Shown here: in pieces, positions 4,233 to 20,959 of the stretch | How positions within the stretch are numbered: the first letter of the stretch is position 1 | Layout: the number at the start of each line of letters is the position of its first letter | DNA from: a virus | IMG/VR virus record: IMGVR_UViG_3300021376_000402 | Location: 1-21,965 of that record | Reading direction: 5' to 3' (one strand) | Length of the DNA stretch: 21,965 nt | Translations under genes and position numbers: made by a program | Notes under the pieces: model-generated | Databases searched by the model: none | Seen by the model: the letters and a program-made list of their open reading frames with translations, nothing else | Told to the model about the DNA's origin: nothing

Positions 4233-4257
4233 ATGGGAGTACTTGTTGTACTCCCAT
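4233..4257 (+). promoter_or_regulatory. Perfect 10-bp hairpin enclosing the lysozyme start codon
   Basis: ATGGGAGTAC (4233-4242) and GTACTCCCAT (4248-4257) are perfect inverted repeats around the 5-nt loop TTGTT. The 3' arm ends in the first two bases of the lysozyme ATG (4256-4258), and the only purine-rich ribosome-binding candidate, GGGAG at 4235-4239, lies in the 5' arm. In RNA both would be paired. There is no T-run after the stem on either strand, so a terminator is less likely. T4 gene e is known to use an RNA hairpin to block lysozyme translation on early transcripts; similar control here is inference. Confidence 0.6.
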
Positions 4258-4909
4258 GTTTGATTTGCGGGACGCTGTTGCTTTAATTCGTAAGTACGAA
4301 GGCTTCAACGAAAAAGCGTTTCCCGCAGATGAAGAGGGTGCTTATTCCATTGGGTATGGCACCCAATTTTATCCAGATGGCTCTCCCGTTAAGAAGGGGC
4401 AGTGGTGCACCAAAGAGAAAGCACTGGAGTACTTGTTTTGTGAGGTGAAGGCCATTCGTGGTCTGCTGGCTGATCTTGACATCCATTTGTACGGATGTGC
4501 CGAACAGGCCTTGATTTCGTTCATCCACTCGGTAGGTTGGAAGCCATTTCTTTACAGCAACATCGTTGACTGCATCAATCACGACGACTGGGCTGGAGTG
4601 GCAGAAGAGATCACGCATTGGATTTTCGATGAGAACCACAGGGTCATCGGTGGTCTGATTGATCGACGCCGAGAAGAGGTGGAGCTTCTGCTGCGGGAAA
4701 TTGATGACAGCCCCTGGTCATCCACCGAAGTTCTTCTCAAGGCGTTTCGTAATTACACTGCTGCTCCGCATCAGATAAAAGCCATCCGCCAACTTGAAGA
4801 AAACATTAACCCTTACGTTTTGGCAGAGTTTGCTAATTCGTTCGCGATCAATGAGGATCCTTGGGCACTTGGGGAACTTGATCAAGTTAAATCGGTATTT
4901 GCCAGCTAG
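4256..4909 (+). CDS. Phage lysozyme (GH24 endolysin)
   Basis: A 217-aa protein whose first 40 residues match the T4/lambdoid lysozyme active site: LIRKYEGF with Glu15 as the general acid, Asp25 ten residues on, then AYSIGYGT with Ser31 in the usual Thr position and Thr36 after it. The family cleaves the MurNAc-GlcNAc bond of peptidoglycan. The fold core appears complete through GLIDRRREEVELLL near residue 150, where GH24 enzymes carry a conserved G-L-x-x-R-R. Roughly 60 extra C-terminal residues follow, with no recognised binding domain. No signal peptide or SAR-type TM helix is evident, so export would need a holin. The start codon is inside the hairpin at 4233-4257. A second, unrelated lysin lies at 15221. 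Confidence 0.85.
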   Translation: MFDLRDAVALIRKYEGFNEKAFPADEEGAYSIGYGTQFYPDGSPVKKGQWCTKEKALEYLFCEVKAIRGLLADLDIHLYGCAEQALISFIHSVGWKPFLYSNIVDCINHDDWAGVAEEITHWIFDENHRVIGGLIDRRREEVELLLREIDDSPWSSTEVLLKAFRNYTAAPHQIKAIRQLEENINPYVLAEFANSFAINEDPWALGELDQVKSVFAS

Positions 4910-4933: not shown

Positions 4934-5239
4934 ATGGAAAACGCAATGGAGAGATCCGTAGAACCACGGGAGTTTGAGTTACCCCTGGAACTCCAGTTCT
5001 CCATGCGTAAAGCTGAGATGGTCGCCAGGGAAATGACCTGGGAAGAACTGTATTCAGCCCTGCTCAACCTCTACCACCAGCGCCTGATGGAGTGGCAGGC
5101 CGTTAAGGAGATCCTGGCAGACGAAAATATTCAGCTGGACTTTGATGTACCAACTGATCTGGAGCTAGAAGAACTCGCCGCCGCCTGCGCGTTTTACGAA
5201 GACGGCGACGAAGATGAAGACGAGCTGCAACCTTTTTAG
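4934..5239 (+). CDS. nblA: NblA-like phycobilisome degradation protein
   Basis: A 101-aa protein whose residues about 13-60 follow the NblA pattern without gaps: FELPLELQFSMRKAEM, then an M-T-x-E-E-L turn (EMTWEELYSALLNLYHQRLM) and a second helix through VKEIL. NblA proteins are small helical dimers that bind phycobilisome rods and recruit Clp protease, and cyanophage copies are known. Unlike canonical NblA of about 55-65 residues, this one has a 12-residue leader and about 40 extra residues ending in an acidic tail (EDGDEDEDEL). The gene stands alone on the plus strand after the lysozyme; TAAAAT about 20 bases upstream could be a -10 element. Its stop overlaps the stop of the convergent DUF3310 gene by 4 bases. 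Assignment is by eye, so homology is likely and activity unproven. Confidence 0.65.
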   Translation: MENAMERSVEPREFELPLELQFSMRKAEMVAREMTWEELYSALLNLYHQRLMEWQAVKEILADENIQLDFDVPTDLELEELAAACAFYEDGDEDEDELQPF

Positions 5240-5841
5240 GCGTCGCCCAATTCAACAAGACGGTTGAGGTACCACTGCGCCTTCTTCAGTGATTCTGTGC
5301 CGCCTTTGTGTTTCTCGCGCCACACATACTTAGCGATATTCCCTTTGAGATAACCGCGAAACTCTTCTGCTGTTAACTGGGCCTCAATGGCTTCGATGCA
5401 TTCGATTCCGCCGTCCGTATAGTGAACAGGATGGTTCACAACATCTTCCCAAATCACGGGAGGACCCTGGATCGTAAACACCGGATTATCACCAATGGTG
5501 TTTTCCCCAGGGAAATTTGAGTTCCGATCTTGGGTAAGAAAATCAGAATCCATCAGCATATCGACGGCTTTTGCCCAGGGAACAGGACAAATCCCATCCT
5601 TGCAGTCGCCAAAATCTAAAACGTCAGGAGAAGCTGAGCCTTCTATCGGCGCAAACCACGACGCTTTGCCGATTCCTCCTTCATCTCTTCCGAAGGACCC
5701 TCCAGTTCCAGTACCAGAGCTTTTGGTTTCGGGCTTGCTCCCATTGCTACTCCCTCCTCCGCTGATGGGATATAACCCGTCAGACCCGGACGGCGCCCCT
5801 CCGCCAATGACAGATTCTGTCTCTCGTTCCCTTCTTGACAT
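5236..5841 (-). CDS. DUF3310 protein (T7 gp1.7-like)
   Basis: The C-terminal 70 residues are a DUF3310 domain: VNHPVHYTDGGIECIEAIEA, then LKGNIAKYVWREKHKG and ESLKKAQWYLNRL. This pattern occurs in many phage proteins, including T7 gp1.7, which has nucleotide kinase activity, so a role in the nucleotide pool is likely. Residues 1-66 are Gly/Ser-rich low complexity and overlap another reading frame (5643-5996) that looks better coding. The true start may therefore be internal, for example ATG at residue 92 or 94 (MLMDSDF). No strong ribosome-binding site favours ATG 5841. It converges with the NblA-like gene, overlapping it by 4 bases. Confidence 0.75.
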   Translation of the reverse strand: MSRRERETESVIGGGAPSGSDGLYPISGGGSSNGSKPETKSSGTGTGGSFGRDEGGIGKASWFAPIEGSASPDVLDFGDCKDGICPVPWAKAVDMLMDSDFLTQDRNSNFPGENTIGDNPVFTIQGPPVIWEDVVNHPVHYTDGGIECIEAIEAQLTAEEFRGYLKGNIAKYVWREKHKGGTESLKKAQWYLNRLVELGDA

Positions 5842-5996
5842 GCCGTTAATCCACGGTTGTACATGTCATATAAGGGTACATCATTTTCTTCGTTTGCGAG
5901 AGGTTGGCCGAAGTCTTCTTCCGTAAGACAGCGACACTTAACCTCATCTTGTACAAACGCATCTAAAAAGGCTGCTGCGTTGTGCATTGTATTCAA
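5643..5996 (-). CDS. Unknown 117-aa protein overlapping the DUF3310 gene
   Basis: The N-terminal 52 residues (MNTMHNAAAFLDAFVQDEV..., C-R-C, EEDFGQPLANEENDVPLYDM) lie upstream of any other gene; the remainder (…GYIPSAEEGVAMGASPKPKA… ending KRRGLRR) overlaps the DUF3310 frame. The composition is protein-like, with an acidic middle and a basic end, whereas the competing frame is Gly/Ser low complexity. ATG 5987 is an alternative start. It is divergent from the gene at 6027 with only 30 bases between starts. I do not recognise the family. Confidence 0.5.
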   Translation of the reverse strand: MNTMHNAAAFLDAFVQDEVKCRCLTEEDFGQPLANEENDVPLYDMYNRGLTACQEGNERQNLSLAEGRRPGLTGYIPSAEEGVAMGASPKPKALVLELEGPSEEMKEESAKRRGLRR

Positions 5997-6026
5997 TACT
6001 TAAGTTACCCCTCTTACAATGATACT

Positions 6027-6407
6027 ATGCCAAGATTCTTTGATTCCACTTACGATCCCAGACAGGACTCTGGTAGTTCTGGTTCGGAAGTAACGGATCT
6101 TAATCCAGAACGTAATTACGATACGGACTTACGTCGTGTCGCAGAACAAGAACGTCCTGATGTTGAAGCAATCAACAGTGATCAGGCTCGGATCAAGCGT
6201 TTCATCACCGCAGCCAAGACGGCAAATAAGTTTCGGCAGAAGGCATCAATTGACGAGCCGACACTCCGTGGTGAAACCCCCCGTTCAGAAGCAACGATTG
6301 GTGGCGTAGAAGTGCCCAGCCTTGGCGATGAATACGGCAAGGTTGGCAGTGTTGGTTACGCCAAGAAACCCAGAGCCCAATCAGGCACCTTCTACGGTTT
6401 TAGCTAG
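6027..6407 (+). CDS. Unknown 126-aa protein
   Basis: Begins MPRFFDSTYDPRQDSGSSGS at ATG 6027. The frame is open back to 5982, but that extension would overlap the divergent gene's start, and TACAAT at 6015-6020 looks like a -10 box, so 6027 is preferred. The protein is polar, with a charged helical middle (QARIKRFITAAKTANKFRQK) and a Gly/Ser-rich end finishing GTFYGFS. No TM helix or known motif. It is a single-gene plus-strand island whose stop overlaps the stop of the convergent gene by 4 bases. It could be a minor virion or scaffold-type protein; that is a guess. Confidence 0.55.
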   Translation: MPRFFDSTYDPRQDSGSSGSEVTDLNPERNYDTDLRRVAEQERPDVEAINSDQARIKRFITAAKTANKFRQKASIDEPTLRGETPRSEATIGGVEVPSLGDEYGKVGSVGYAKKPRAQSGTFYGFS

Positions 6408-9545: not shown

Positions 9546-12500
9546 GTGGCTAACAGACGGATATCCGAGCTACAGGAACTTGCGGGTATTGACTTAGCCG
9601 ATAATGACCTACTGACGGTCGTTGATACCGGTGAAGTTGACCCTGCGATTAAAAACAAGAAGCTCACGATATCTGGCACCAAAGCGTATCTTAATATTTA
9701 CTACCTTCCCCGTACGGGGGGAACTATCAGTGGCAGTATTACCGTTCAAGGTAACACCACAATTCAGAGTGGTTTAACCGTATCTGGCACCACCACGTTG
9801 AGTGGTTTAACCGTTACCGGGTCGGTGACGTTTGTCAACGCCACTGTCCAAAACAATTTAACAGTTAGCGGTGATATCAATACCAACACACTGACCGGTA
9901 ATGCCGCAAACTTCAGCACTGTCACTGGTGTCACTGGTGTTTTTACCAATCAAGTTTCCGGTGCCACAATCACGGGTAACAATATCAACGGAACCAACGG
10001 AACGTTCCAGCAGTTAACCGGTCAAAACGTAACTGTTAATAACAACTTAAGTGTTGCCAACGCACTGTCGGTAACTGGACTAGCAACATTCCAATCCAAC
10101 GTACGAGTAACTGGCACCCTCAGCGGAACCACCGTTACTGGGACGAACGCTCAATTCTCAAATATTACTGGTATCAACATTGTTGGTACCAGCACTGTCT
10201 CTGGGGCTGTTGTTACAGGTAACGCTGGTCAATTTACCGAGCTGACTGGGGTCTCCGGCGTGTTCACCAGCCAGGTGAGCGGTGCTGTTATCACTGGTAA
10301 CACAATCCAAGGAACAGCTATTACAGGCGTTGTTGGGCGATTTACCCAAATCACAGGTGTTTCAGGAACTTTCACAAGCGTTCTCTCTGGTGCAACCATC
10401 ACTGGAGATACGGTTCTTGCAACGCAACTAACCGGAATTTCCGGAACGTTCACCAGCCAGGTATCAGGTGCTGTTGTTACTGGTGATACGGGACGCTTTA
10501 CGCAACTGACCGGCATCAGCGGGGTTTTCACCTCTCAGTTATCTGGGGCAGTTATCACCGGTGACACTGGGCGGTTCAGTCAGCTAACTGGAGTTTCTGG
10601 CGTCTTTACCAGCCAGATCTCTGGAGCCACGATCACTGGTGATACGATCCAGGGAACGACCATCACTGGTATCAATGGTCAGTTCACCCAACTCACTGGA
10701 ATTTCAGGTGTTTTCACCTCCCAACTTAGTGGTGCTGTCATTACCGGAGATACTGGACGCTTTAGCCAGCTCACCGGCATCAGCGGTGTATTCACTGATC
10801 AAATCAGTGGTGCAACCGTCACTGGTGACACAGGTAACTTCACGACCTTAAACGCAATAACCGCAACGTTCACGACGGGAATTGTCCGTCAAAACATCAC
10901 GGTTACTGGCAATATTGCAACCAGCGGCACTCTGACCGTTGATCAGACGGCAACGATTGCGTCTGGCTTAACCGTCACCACTGGCACTATCTCTGGCGTT
11001 ACTTTTACCGGTACGACAGCTCAGTTCACGCAGATCACTGGAATCAGCGGCGTCTTCACCAGTCAGGTATCCGGTGCCGTCATCACGGGTAACACCGTCA
11101 ATGCCACCACTGGTAATTTCCAAACCTTAATCACCAGTGGACATACGGTCCAAGGCAACCTGACCGTCAGCGGAGATCTGGCGGTTCTTGGTTCCGGCAC
11201 CTTTGCTTCTGGTGTCCGCGTCACCGGTACCCTCAGCGGCACCACCATTACCGGCACCACGGGTCAGTTCACCCAGATCACTGGCATCAGTGGTGTCTTC
11301 ACCAGTCAGGTCTCTGGCGCAACCGTTACCGGCAACCTGATCCAGGGTACGAACATCACCGGTATTGCAGGTGGCTTCACCACGCTTACAGGCGCAACGG
11401 TCACTGGTACAACCGCCAACTTCAGCTCTGGTGTCTTTACAACTCAGCTCAGTGGCGCTGTTATTACTGGGGATGCCGGTCAATTTGGAACGCTCACTGG
11501 TAATACCGCTGGCTTCACGACCGTCACTGGTACGACCGTCACTGGCACAACTTCCAATTTCAGCTCCGGCATCTTTACGACCCAGCTTTCAGGTGCTGTT
11601 ATCACCGGTGATGCCGGTCAATTTGGCACCTTAACAGGGAATACCGCAGGGTTTACAGCGGTCACTGGTGCCACTGTTACCGGTACAACAGCCAACTTCA
11701 GCTCTGGCGTCTTTACAACTCGCATTAGCGGTGCTGTTATTACAGGTGACGCTGGACAGTTTGGAACACTAACTGGTAATACAGCCGGATTTACCACGGT
11801 CACCGGTACAACGATTACTGGGACGACCATCAATGCCAGCTCCGGTGTCTTCACCACTCAAATCAGTGGCGCCACCGTCACTGGCAATGCCATTCAAGCA
11901 GGAACACTTACTGGTAATACTGCAGGTTTTACGACTGTTACCGGTATAACCGTTACCGGTACAACTGCAAACTTTAGTTCGGGCGTTTACACCACCCAGA
12001 TTTCTGGCAATGCCATCACCGGTAATACAGCTGGTTTTACCACGGTCACTGGCACCACTATTACTGGAACAACTGTCAACGCACAATCCGGTGTTTTTAC
12101 CACTCAAATTAGTGGAGCCGTTATCACCGGAGATGCCGGTCGATTTGGTACGCTCACTGGTAATACTGCTGGCTTTACTACGGTTACTGGAGCAACAGTA
12201 ACTGGAACAACCGCCAACTTTGCATCGGGTGTCTTCACTACTCAGATCAGTGGCGCCACTATTACCGGTAATTTGATCCAGGCAGGAACTCTGACTGGTA
12301 ATACGGCTGGTTTCACAACTGTAACTGGCACCACAGTAACTGGCACTACTGCTAACTTCGGCTCTGGTGTTTTCACTACTCAAATTTCTGGTAACGCAAT
12401 TACCGGTAATACCGGTGGATTCACGACGCTCACTGGCAATACAGTTACTGGCATCACTGCAAACTTTGCATCTGGTGTCTTTACTAACCAGGTATCTGGC

Positions 12501-12818
12501 GCAGTATTCCAAGCTGGTGGTGCAATCTTCGTCAGTGGTTCTGGTGATGTACGCCCGCGTGGCCTGTTCTCTTTCCCAACGACCGTTGGTACTTCTGGTT
12601 TTGTTCTTCAAACCAATGCAAACGGCACCACTTCTTGGGTGATTCAAAGTGGCGGCGGCGGAAGCACAATTACAACAATCATGCAAAGTAAGATTGTGAT
12701 TGATGTTAATTTTGGCCTTACCGCCGGATATAATGGATTGAGCCAAGGACCTGTTGAAATTGCATCAAGTTTCACCGTTGATGTCCCAAGCGGATCGCTT
12801 TGGAGCGTCCTTGGGTAA
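9546..12818 (+). CDS. Tail fibre with long G/T-rich repeat shaft
   Basis: A 1090-aa protein with a GTG start. Residues 1-50 (MANRRISELQELAGIDLADN..., V-V-D-T, KNKKLTISG) match the conserved N-terminal anchor of cyanophage fibre proteins. Residues about 55-1000 are tandem copies of a 26-residue unit of the type GVFTSQLSGAVITGDTGRF plus SQLTGIS, with 10-residue insertions (TIQGTTITGI type) and later 46-48-residue forms containing QFGTLTGNTAGFTTVTGATV. Regular V/I-T-G and F-T spacing suggests a beta-helical or fibrous trimer. The C-terminus changes to a non-repeat head: VSGSGDVRPRGLFSFPTT, a GGGGS linker, and a terminal IASSFTVDVPSGSLWSVLG segment typical of fibre tips. No enzymatic motif. Likely receptor-contacting; a second fibre follows 42 bases later. 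Confidence 0.88.
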   Translation: MANRRISELQELAGIDLADNDLLTVVDTGEVDPAIKNKKLTISGTKAYLNIYYLPRTGGTISGSITVQGNTTIQSGLTVSGTTTLSGLTVTGSVTFVNATVQNNLTVSGDINTNTLTGNAANFSTVTGVTGVFTNQVSGATITGNNINGTNGTFQQLTGQNVTVNNNLSVANALSVTGLATFQSNVRVTGTLSGTTVTGTNAQFSNITGINIVGTSTVSGAVVTGNAGQFTELTGVSGVFTSQVSGAVITGNTIQGTAITGVVGRFTQITGVSGTFTSVLSGATITGDTVLATQLTGISGTFTSQVSGAVVTGDTGRFTQLTGISGVFTSQLSGAVITGDTGRFSQLTGVSGVFTSQISGATITGDTIQGTTITGINGQFTQLTGISGVFTSQLSGAVITGDTGRFSQLTGISGVFTDQISGATVTGDTGNFTTLNAITATFTTGIVRQNITVTGNIATSGTLTVDQTATIASGLTVTTGTISGVTFTGTTAQFTQITGISGVFTSQVSGAVITGNTVNATTGNFQTLITSGHTVQGNLTVSGDLAVLGSGTFASGVRVTGTLSGTTITGTTGQFTQITGISGVFTSQVSGATVTGNLIQGTNITGIAGGFTTLTGATVTGTTANFSSGVFTTQLSGAVITGDAGQFGTLTGNTAGFTTVTGTTVTGTTSNFSSGIFTTQLSGAVITGDAGQFGTLTGNTAGFTAVTGATVTGTTANFSSGVFTTRISGAVITGDAGQFGTLTGNTAGFTTVTGTTITGTTINASSGVFTTQISGATVTGNAIQAGTLTGNTAGFTTVTGITVTGTTANFSSGVYTTQISGNAITGNTAGFTTVTGTTITGTTVNAQSGVFTTQISGAVITGDAGRFGTLTGNTAGFTTVTGATVTGTTANFASGVFTTQISGATITGNLIQAGTLTGNTAGFTTVTGTTVTGTTANFGSGVFTTQISGNAITGNTGGFTTLTGNTVTGITANFASGVFTNQVSGAVFQAGGAIFVSGSGDVRPRGLFSFPTTVGTSGFVLQTNANGTTSWVIQSGGGGSTITTIMQSKIVIDVNFGLTAGYNGLSQGPVEIASSFTVDVPSGSLWSVLG
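9735..12510 (+). repeat. Coding tandem repeats of the fibre shaft
   Basis: Amino-acid repeats such as GVFTSQxSGAxITGD, GNTAGFTTVTG and VTGTTANFSSGVFTTQISG recur throughout. At DNA level the copies differ mainly at third codon positions: GNTAGF is spelled with different Gly, Asn, Thr and Ala codons in neighbouring copies (compare 11500-11515 and 11638-11653). The reverse strand of this block has long spurious open frames, an effect of the codon pattern. Confidence 0.85.
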
Positions 12819-12860: not shown

Positions 12861-13883
12861 ATGGCTTACGGAACTTTAAAGGTCGATAATATAACTTATA
12901 CGTCAGGCGGTTCCGACGCAAGCACTTCAGTTAGCGGCATTGTTGCCATTGCAGCGGGAAATTTCAATAATGTCACTGCTACCGGGACGATTTCCGGGGT
13001 CAGGATTACTGGCAATACGGCTGGCTTCACGACTGTTACAGGTACGACAGTTACTGGTACAACCGCCAACTTCAGCTCGGGGGTTTTTACAACCCAAGTG
13101 AGTGGCGCAACAGTTGCAGGTCCAACGCATACGGGTACAACCGCCAACTTTGTTGCCGGTAATTTTACCACCAGCATCACAGGCGCTACTGTCACTGGAA
13201 CCACAGCAAATTTTCAATCTGGAGTATTCACTACTCAAGTAAGCGGCGCAACAGTTGCAGGCCCAACTCATACTGGTACGACTGCTAATTTTGTTGCTGG
13301 TAACTTCACCACGAGCATCACTGGTGCAACCATTACCGGAACAACTGCCAACTTCAGCTCCGGTGTGTTTACTACTCAAGTAAGCGGCGCAACAGTTGCA
13401 GGCCCAACTCATACTGGCACCACCGCAAACTTTAGTTCAGGTGTTTTTACCACTCAAGTTTCAGGCGCTACGGTTGCTGGTCCAACGCATACCGGTACGA
13501 CTGCAAACTTCTCCAGTGGCAACTTCACCACCACGCTCTCTGGTGCAACTACCAGGGATAGCGCTGGGAATGTTCGTGATATTCCTCAAAACTCTCAAAC
13601 CAGCAGTTATACACTCGTTGCGGCTGACGCTGGTAAACACGTATTTACCACTTCTAGTGTAACGGTGCCTTCCGGTGTGTTTAGCGTTGGTCAAGCAGTC
13701 AGCATCTATAACAACACCACCGGCAATATTACAGTTACCCAAGGTACTAACGTTACTCTTCGCCAAGCAGGTGCATCTGGAACAGGTAATCGAACCTTGG
13801 CACAGCGTGGTTTGGCTACTGTATTATGTGTTTCAGGTGCAGCAGGCACTGAGTTTGTAATTGGTGGTGCAGGGTTAAGCTGA
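12861..13883 (+). CDS. Second repeat-type tail fibre
   Basis: A 340-aa protein starting MAYGTLKVDNITYTSGGSDA, a common opening of cyanophage fibre proteins. The shaft has alternating units of about 47 residues: GATVAGPTHTGTTANFVAGN, FTTSITGATVTGTTANF, SGVFTTQVS; these share words with the 9546 fibre. From about residue 230 a compact C-terminal domain follows: RDIPQNSQTSSYTLVAADAG, KHVFTTSSVTVPSGVFSVGQ, AVSIYNNTTGNITVTQGTN, and TLAQRGLATVLCVSGAAGTE, ending FVIGGAGLS. This end module recurs in many phage fibre and tail proteins, where it is probably a trimerisation or receptor-facing domain. The stop is one base before the next ATG, so it is probably co-expressed with the glycine-rich adhesin. 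Confidence 0.88.
   Translation: MAYGTLKVDNITYTSGGSDASTSVSGIVAIAAGNFNNVTATGTISGVRITGNTAGFTTVTGTTVTGTTANFSSGVFTTQVSGATVAGPTHTGTTANFVAGNFTTSITGATVTGTTANFQSGVFTTQVSGATVAGPTHTGTTANFVAGNFTTSITGATITGTTANFSSGVFTTQVSGATVAGPTHTGTTANFSSGVFTTQVSGATVAGPTHTGTTANFSSGNFTTTLSGATTRDSAGNVRDIPQNSQTSSYTLVAADAGKHVFTTSSVTVPSGVFSVGQAVSIYNNTTGNITVTQGTNVTLRQAGASGTGNRTLAQRGLATVLCVSGAAGTEFVIGGAGLS
12994..13545 (+). repeat. Coding repeats of the second fibre
   Basis: Tandem units built from GATVAGPTHTGTTANF, FTTSITGATVTGTTANF and SGVFTTQVS. Adjacent copies are related to each other and to the shaft of the upstream fibre, suggesting duplication or exchange between the two genes. Confidence 0.8.
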
Positions 13884-19219: not shown

Positions 19220-20476
19220 TTAGGCCGTAACCAGTTCCCGCTCAGCTTTCTTTTTTTTCTTCTTAGGTTCTGTCAACGCTTCCGCCTCCAGTACAGGATG
19301 AAGCACCTCTTGGAACACCCCATCGAACTGAGCAGCGACCGTATCCCAGTTAAACTGTTCGTCAGTTGCCCGCAGGTAACAGAGTTCAGCAACGGCATCT
19401 AGCTTCTCGCGGTCCTCATACAGTTCGTTGAGGATCTCGGTGAGGTGGACGGAGGAGGGGCAGGGCATCTCACGAGCAAAGTTGGTGTCCACATCAACGT
19501 GCTCACAGCGAATCAATTTGCCGTAACCCTCGAAGATCTCCTTGCAGGAGGTGTGATCAGGTACTACCTGAGCCACCCGACATGCCGCGTGCTCAAAGTT
19601 CACGAGACCCCAGCCTTCACCCTTACAAGTATTGACACCCACATCGGCAGCCTGGTAGATCGTCTCCAGCAGGTCCACCGGCACAGAAGGCGGGTTGGGC
19701 GTGTTGGCGGTCATGATGATGCGACCGTTGGGATCAAGGCCCCGCTTCTGCATCTCTCGCGCAAATACAGCCATCACATCCCAGCCCTGGTCCTTGGTAC
19801 CCATGTGCAGGTACAGGTGGGCATCCGGTTTATCGACTGCGAAATCGGCAAAAGCATCAATCGTGATATCGATCCGTTTGCGGAACTGGTTCCTGTTGCC
19901 ATTGAAGACAATGAATGCGTCCTCCTTCACACCCAGCTTCTTACGTGCTTCCAGCTTGTCGCCAGGCTTGAACTGCCCAGGGGTCACGCCATGGGGAATC
20001 ACACTGATCGCCTTTTGGATTCCACCCTTAATGAATTCGTGTGCACCGAATTCCGTATAGGAGATGACGGCATCCCATGCGTTGGCGGTATCAGCGAGGC
20101 AACCAACCCAGTTGTAGGAATCCATGGGCATGTAACCCACGAACTTGAAGCCCAGCTTCTGGTGTAAATCGTGGATCTTGGAGTATTGATGGTTGATGAT
20201 CCAGCAGTCATTGATGGTGAAGACCACATCAGGCTTTTCGATCTCTACAATCTCGCGGATGCGGTCCTCACCAAAAGCACCGTGTTGGAAACGGTTGGAT
20301 GCCGGGTAGATCTTGTAGGTCTGCTGCAAGGGATCTGGGTCACCATGCCAGTTGCAGCCGAGGATTACAATCTCGTATTTATCTTTCAGCCGATCAATAA
20401 CGTTGTGAGTAACGCGTGCAAAACCAGTGGTGGCAATAACGTCACCAACCCAAAGAAGCTTCGGTTTTTTAGTCAT
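19220..20476 (-). CDS. GT4-type glycosyltransferase (GT-B fold)
   Basis: A 418-aa protein of full family length. The N-terminal domain opens KPKLLWVGDVIATTGFARVT, the G-F-A/G-R nucleotide-sugar loop of GT4/GT1 enzymes. The C-terminal domain has VIPHGVTPGQFKPG, then FNGNRNQFRKRIDITIDAFA and GEGWGLVNFEHAA, an E-x7-E motif that contacts the donor sugar. The tail is Lys-rich (EPKKKKKKAERE), unusual for the family, and may bind DNA or acidic surfaces. Phage copies may glycosylate DNA, virion proteins or host surface glycans; sequence does not decide. The start ATG 20476 is preceded by TATAGT, and the stop is followed by a clear terminator. Confidence 0.85.
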   Translation of the reverse strand: MTKKPKLLWVGDVIATTGFARVTHNVIDRLKDKYEIVILGCNWHGDPDPLQQTYKIYPASNRFQHGAFGEDRIREIVEIEKPDVVFTINDCWIINHQYSKIHDLHQKLGFKFVGYMPMDSYNWVGCLADTANAWDAVISYTEFGAHEFIKGGIQKAISVIPHGVTPGQFKPGDKLEARKKLGVKEDAFIVFNGNRNQFRKRIDITIDAFADFAVDKPDAHLYLHMGTKDQGWDVMAVFAREMQKRGLDPNGRIIMTANTPNPPSVPVDLLETIYQAADVGVNTCKGEGWGLVNFEHAACRVAQVVPDHTSCKEIFEGYGKLIRCEHVDVDTNFAREMPCPSSVHLTEILNELYEDREKLDAVAELCYLRATDEQFNWDTVAAQFDGVFQEVLHPVLEAEALTEPKKKKKKAERELVTA

Positions 20477-20533: not shown

Positions 20534-20959
20534 TTAGGCATCTGCCAATGCCTGCATCCCGGTGTTGTTCTCGACATACAGTTTATCCAACGCAGCAACT
20601 GCACCCGCTTCGCCGGGGGTAATAGAACGTGTTAATTCCCGTTCTTCTGCAGTCTTTGCCTTGAGTTTGTACTTTAGAAACTCAGCTGCCTTATGGGTGT
20701 TGGTGGTATCCCCGCAGGTGTAGAGATCGATGGCGGCGTACCCAATCTCTGGCCAAGTATGAATGGAGGCGTGTGATTCAGCCAGCAGGGCCAGCAGTGT
20801 GACGCCCTGCGGTTCAAATTTCTCCCCAAAGATCCTAAGGATGGTAGCTTTTGCCATCAGAAGAGCAGCTTCCAACCACTCCTCCAGTAGCTCGTAATCA
20901 TTCAGTGCCTCTGGATCACAGTCATACAAATCCAGAATTAGGTGACGCCCATTAGACAT
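20534..20959 (-). CDS. speD: S-adenosylmethionine decarboxylase proenzyme
   Basis: A 141-aa protein of the short bacterial SpeD class. The self-processing site is intact: LLAESHASIHTWPEIGYAAI, where Ser62 after Glu61 becomes the pyruvoyl group; His67 and Cys82 (LYTCGD) are the processing and protonation residues of the family. The enzyme makes decarboxylated AdoMet for spermidine synthesis. Such genes are recurrent in cyanophages, where polyamines may help condense DNA or support photosystems and translation. ATG 20959 overlaps the helicase stop by 8 bases, so it is translated from the same mRNA. The C-terminal 30 residues (SITPGEAGAVAALDKLYVEN) extend past the core. Confidence 0.92.
   Translation of the reverse strand: MSNGRHLILDLYDCDPEALNDYELLEEWLEAALLMAKATILRIFGEKFEPQGVTLLALLAESHASIHTWPEIGYAAIDLYTCGDTTNTHKAAEFLKYKLKAKTAEERELTRSITPGEAGAVAALDKLYVENNTGMQALADA

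Follow-up and report, generated by a model that had tools for sequence, protein, structure and literature searches.

Introduction

Mutations near the N-terminus of the proteolysis adaptor NblA impair its binding to ClpC. At the opposite end of the protein, the NblA C-terminus has been reported to contact the phycobilisome while ClpC is bound simultaneously (PMC7760959). The occurrence of nblA in cyanophages is already known; in the excerpts drawn on here, one report counts 14 cyanopodoviruses along with S-TIM5 and homologues in myoviruses, makes no mention of Synechococcus phage S-EIV1, and describes phycobilin loss when other cyanophage NblAs are expressed (PMC9602691). The NblAs of the Microcystis phages Ma-LMM01 and MaMV-DC, of S-SCSM1 and of the cyanopodoviruses, as far as those excerpts go, are phage-encoded NblA homologues like the protein described below. 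A second described system that bears on this protein is the C-terminal peptide of single-stranded DNA-binding proteins (SSB-Ct), an acidic-x-P-F sequence (PMC5872125) that reads DDDIPF in E. coli and acts as an interaction hub (PMC5872125, PMC10143822).

The DNA analyzed here, referred to as the window, is a stretch of 21,965 nucleotides from IMG/VR virus record IMGVR_UViG_3300021376_000402. It encodes a small protein whose core, residues 13-63, is very likely a distant homologue of NblA as judged by profile comparison. The core is followed by a conserved extension that ends in a peptide resembling SSB-Ct, and both the extension and this end are, to our knowledge, undescribed so far.

The gene and its genomic setting

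The open reading frame is a real gene and lies on the plus strand exactly where an earlier sequence-only reading had placed it (Table 1). It begins 24 bases after the end of the lysozyme gene. The second in-frame ATG encodes M5, which is invariant in a 30-sequence alignment and serves as the start codon of several relatives, so the true start may be at 4946.

Table 1. Coordinates of the putative adaptor gene, its parts and its immediate neighbors in the window
Feature	Position	Strand	Details
NblA-like putative adaptor gene	4934..5239	+	101 aa + stop, ATG to TAG; alternative start ATG 4946
Core, very likely NblA-homologous, residues 15-61	4976..5116	+	PF04485 positions 1-47, hhalign, shuffle control, structure models
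Linker + third predicted helix, residues 64-89	5123..5200	+	F-D-V/I-P-T-D-L-E-L-x-E-L-A motif; not in canonical NblA
Disordered acidic tail, residues 89-101	5198..5236	+	ends L-Q-P-F; resembles SSB C-terminal peptide
Phage lysozyme gene, directly upstream	4256..4909	+	PF00959 E=3.9e-16
DUF3310 gene, convergent, 3' end overlaps putative adaptor gene by 4 bases	5236..5841	-	PF11753 E=7.4e-20

The phage origin proposed in that reading agrees with the neighbors of the gene, which are phage lysozyme, DUF3310 and dCTP deaminase, and with the closest sequenced relative. A tblastn search of 50,697 phage records with the window protein matched only Synechococcus phage S-EIV1, the sole isolate found to carry the gene, whose host is Synechococcus sp. 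PCCC-A2c. The S-EIV1 protein AHV82245.1, annotated as hypothetical, is a direct orthologue with 63% identity to the window protein; it likewise follows lysozyme and has an acidic tail (ending APF), but the tail is longer (106 aa in total) and the record carries no NblA annotation. Ma-LMM01-type NblAs differ in this respect, as they are found among the phage records by a canonical NblA query, which matched them over 52 residues under the annotation nblA. Two canonical queries, the first with an approximate tail, recovered Microcystis and Nodularia NblAs and no relatives of the S-EIV1 protein. In a survey table, S-EIV1 is given without a photosynthesis gene (PMC5332604), and no recognition of its gene as nblA-like was found in the literature searched, the S-EIV1 genome paper and Nadel 2019 being beyond its scope.

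The family is large, occurs in cyanophages related to S-EIV1 and sits beside phage lysozyme. A single-sequence scan of IMG/VR with the window protein detected 150 related stretches and an alignment scan with the family at least 521, placing the gene in hundreds of contigs from picocyanobacterial phages of one widespread lineage. Lysozyme adjoins the family gene in all 243 loci with enough upstream DNA, and in each of 208 loci DUF3310 lies downstream at a distance of at most 2.5 kb. With neighbors this constant, the gene belongs to the conserved set of the S-EIV1 lineage and is not a recent acquisition. The family alignment retrieved no relatives in a profile scan of genome contigs, and comparison of the window protein with PHROGs, NCBIfam and PADLOC yielded no informative family, PHROGs and NCBIfam giving no NblA match.

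Elsewhere in the window, translations of two minus-strand frames (20534-20959 and 19220-20476) place an S-adenosylmethionine decarboxylase-like gene beside those for primase and glycosyltransferase, and the annotation of S-EIV1 lists genes of these kinds in identical order. Two long repetitive proteins on the plus strand (9546-12818 and 12861-13883), with repeats like SGVFTTQVSGATVTG, probably represent beta-repeats of a tail fiber or adhesin, and long open frames, for example 11769-12746, run on the opposite strand of these genes.

Homology of the core to NblA

Detection of NblA likeness depends on whether one sequence or the whole family is compared. An NblA-family HMM search, named in the sequence-only reading as a check, is positive for the family and weak for the lone window sequence: PF04485 (NblA) gives the window protein 20.4 bits across the core, below the curated Pfam cut-off of 25 bits, and is the Pfam family matched by 30 of 30 aligned members (best E 4.8e-6). 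Relatives score 16.6-25.3 bits; two members exceed the cut-off, at 25.3 bits (G010) and, in a picocyanobacterial genome (G417), at 26.5 bits. When the family profile was compared with 177,635 distinct PDB sequences, the best match was NblA 1ojh from Anabaena sp. PCC 7120 (E 6.6e-4, 50 residues without a gap). Profile-profile alignment by hhalign against 89 distinct canonical NblAs of genomic and phage origin (51-68 aa in length) covered 51 columns, residues 13-63, again gap-free, with a score of 42.7 and P 7e-8; the best of 200 column shuffles scored 18.2 and the reversed alignment 10.6. The gap-free NblA-like stretch noticed by eye in the window is thus borne out. An NblA HMM constructed for this analysis was run over 14,226 ORFs from the loci; family members reached 11.9-26.0 bits, and no unrelated ORF exceeded 7.6. 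The two most divergent members (L621 and L622) showed no NblA match.

The motifs E-L-P-L-E-L-Q-F-S-M-R, M-T-W-E-E and L-L-N-L-Y-H-Q of the window core correspond to features of 1ojh, namely the N-terminal E-L-x-L-E-x-Q-F-S-x-R motif, a methionine at the turn and L-x-x-L-Y-x-Q in helix 2 of a two-helix hairpin. An AlphaFold model predicts this hairpin with high confidence (helices 18-32 and 36-63) in the same register as in NblA, as had been anticipated. Foldseek searches of the PDB with the full model and with a 56-residue core gave no match, a result that is uninformative, as a hairpin so short and helical rarely scores.

Residues kept and lost

In two alignments with a common register, the family keeps NblA positions E6, L7, L9, E10, Q12, F13 and R16, as well as M25, L34, L37, Y38, Q40 and L52. 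The best-kept part is the N-terminal motif E-L-S/P-L-E-x-Q-F-x-x-R. R44, E45 and Y48 of NblA are lost and other helix-2 positions are changed, and none of the six residues of the K53-H-Q-W-G-L58 block, part of the region for which phycobilisome contact has been reported, survives, which justifies the doubt expressed earlier about the C-terminal binding residues. K26, A27, E28, R50, E53 and W54 are strongly conserved in the family and have no NblA counterpart. A kept N-terminal motif with a lost C-terminal block would fit an adaptor whose protease side is retained and whose cargo side has changed. Since the residues of the phycobilisome contact were looked for and are absent, the window protein is not classed here as a bona fide NblA. 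The H-Q-W-G-L residues are likewise missing from diverged NblA-like proteins of the hosts; by itself, their loss is thus compatible with phycobilisome binding.

The C-terminal extension

With 101 residues against about 60 in NblA, the window protein carries some 38 extra residues comprising a linker, a third helix, an acidic tail and a terminal Pro-Phe (PF). This extension is, as proposed, foreign to canonical NblA, being conserved in the family and absent from NblA. The proposal of an acidic tail of about 40 residues holds for a disordered acidic run at approximately residues 89-99; it does not hold for residues 63-90, a conserved linker and helix, and it left out the conserved PF end. The model places the third helix at residues 75-89, followed by a disordered end with pLDDT <50 across residues 91-101. 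D71, P73, T74, E77, E80 and L81 in the linker and third helix are invariant among 42 sequences.

The PF end is present in 86 of 103 unique family sequences. Its proline is encoded by CCG (40), CCT (28), CCC (17) or CCA (1) and its phenylalanine by TTC (58) or TTT (28), a variation showing that the residues and not the bases are conserved. The preceding residue is usually Q and not I, V or L. Clades without PF end in SVF (L614-L617), PFFG (L621, L622), PLAI/PLSI (L393-L430) or FL/AV. A constraint from the 4-base overlap with the DUF3310 gene was considered as the cause of the final phenylalanine and rejected, the opposing stop being in register in 56 of 123 distinct 3' ends; the position of the proline codon outside the overlap further rules it out.

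Comparison with SSB tails

Like SSB-Ct, the tail of the window protein is a disordered acidic run with a C-terminal Pro-Phe; unlike SSBs, the family has no OB fold, usually has Q before PF and includes clades with other ends. PF ends are rare among the products of the phage genomes surveyed. Among the 128 listed CDS of S-EIV1, the two with a PF end are the annotated single-stranded DNA-binding protein and the NblA-like protein. Crude gene calls in three further genomes gave 3 of 136, 2 of 123 and 3 of 127 products ending in PF, always including these two, which therefore account for eight of the ten PF-ending products in the four genomes surveyed. A PF end was read on 77 of 80 phage SSBs; in the picocyanobacterial genomes examined, both SSBs close with I/V-P-F, preceded by mostly acidic residues.

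Comparison of the two tails by clade, excluding the PLAI clade with its short contigs, shows PF on both SSB and putative adaptor in the main clade, PF on the SSB and not on the putative adaptor in the SVF and PFFG clades, and PF on neither protein in the FL clade, whose SSB ends in DDNEHF. A strict tracking of the SSB end by the PF end is therefore not upheld, and with divergent clades ending in SVF, PFFG, PLAI and FL, SSB mimicry is a lead and not a result.

The DDNEHF end was read in SSBs of divergent-clade phage contigs 3300006810_000037 and 3300005613_000310 (L529 and L530); the SSB frame of L529 reads through to ...SPRCFQLF. A 142-aa phage ORF at 5880-6308 (+) of L634 (G291) ends in ...EPTLEEIPF, which brings the SSB-tail-like ends of that genome to three.

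NblA in the host group

The canonical adaptor is rarely detectable in the host group. Within the picocyanobacterial family, 201 genomes were searched and 5 gave a PF04485 match (E <=0.01), one of them through the phage-type member in G417; in a wider sample of the phylum, 92 of 244 genomes had a match. With CsoS2 as a marker of alpha-cyanobacteria, one of 23 CsoS2-bearing genomes had a match. Diverged NblA-like forms, such as MAPTSLSLESNFELERIKRSIDAMDD-type proteins, are present in the host group. Given the rarity of PF04485 in hosts, an adaptor brought in by the phage could provide an activity that the host lacks or possesses in a diverged form.

Proposed role and alternative explanations

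In the preferred reading, the N-terminal hairpin (residues ~13-63) most likely dimerises and would dock on the host ClpC unfoldase in the fashion of NblA. The phycobilisome-contacting end of NblA would have given way to the D-V/I-P-T helix and to an acidic tail, mobile and with a short hydrophobic terminus, which may select cargo or strengthen its binding. The most likely cargo would be the host light-harvesting antenna, whose degradation, presumably during infection, could release amino acids or reduce damage by light. A role of the family protein as some type of ClpC adaptor is probable, the antenna as its main cargo has an even chance or a little less, and degradation of the antenna by the putative adaptor is plausible. 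The reading as a whole is given an even chance; it sees a proteolysis adaptor derived from NblA and encoded by phages, its cargo recognition remodelled and the antenna still its likeliest cargo.

With the NblA C-terminal block lost and an SSB-like tail gained, a change of cargo is at least conceivable. The core would then dock on ClpC and the tail, mimicking SSB-Ct, would hand SSB-binding host proteins to ClpCP in place of phycobilisomes, the candidates being host replication, repair or nuclease proteins. The frequency of the PF end with its synonymously variable proline codon, the near restriction of such ends to SSB and the NblA-like protein (at most one other gene in each of the three further genomes), the I/V-P-F ends of host SSBs, the role of SSB-Ct as an interaction hub and the loss of the phycobilisome-contact block all favor this idea. 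It is nevertheless rather unlikely, as four types of clade keep the protein without a PF end, two of them with PF still on their SSB, as Q and not I, V or L usually precedes PF, and as all SSB/adaptor pairs are phylogenetically linked. Stated as a re-targeting of Clp, in which the antenna-binding end of an NblA-derived ClpC adaptor was exchanged for an SSB-tail mimic, the proposal is unlikely; if true, host nucleases, recombination and replication factors gathered by SSB would be directed to ClpCP during infection.

The same PF-tail evidence would apply equally to a protein without a part in proteolysis, in which the hairpin serves as a scaffold for dimerisation and the acidic tail works in phage replication, as a competitor of SSB tails or as a DNA-mimicking regulator, and the family-specific residues K26 to W54 that NblA lacks would suit it as well. 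This explanation is improbable, however, in view of the gene's place in a lysozyme/late cluster about 35 kb from the SSB and polymerase genes in the circular S-EIV1 genome, and of the NblA N-terminal motif, dispensable for mere dimerisation, being the best-kept part. Convergence of an unrelated small helical late phage protein (a chaperone, an antiholin-like protein or a minor virion factor) on an NblA-like sequence seems similarly improbable: single-sequence scores below threshold, the lack of a structural match by Foldseek, the invariant position beside lysozyme and the fading of the NblA match in weaker members are what such a protein might show, but NblA is the top match in two independent libraries, gap-free and in unchanged register, the profile-profile score lies far outside the shuffles, and two members pass the Pfam cut-off.

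If the family protein is a working adaptor, these phages control the host Clp protease, and the family is an example of a degradation adaptor acquiring a new specificity. One small protein and standard assays suffice to decide between the antenna and, by way of the SSB-like tail, DNA-repair proteins as the target of the putative adaptor.

Further NblA-like frames

A second NblA-like ORF, which lacks a tail and includes the sequence MDAIDLPMNVEFSIHAAALAIQRLDRDELEEAFIEMLHQ..., lies on the same phage contig as a family member (L623, G318:87607-87792). It scores 33 bits to the family profile and 17 bits to the NblA HMM constructed for this analysis; against Pfam and the phage records it gave no significant match. 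The family member of G417 that exceeds the Pfam NblA cut-off is encoded at 5402-5710 (-) of contig C41 (L653), where its neighbors are a rhomboid protein, a Cas4-like PD-(D/E)XK protein, an SNase and a trigger-factor fragment. Wide sharing of the C-terminal module by other phage proteins was considered and rejected, this contig providing the one weak case. The adjacent ORF at 5724-6182 (-) ends in LDLDVPTKDQLDNLINILEDEEQDLDQEETF, which resembles the family C-terminal module, and the pair may represent a mobile element or a split duplication.
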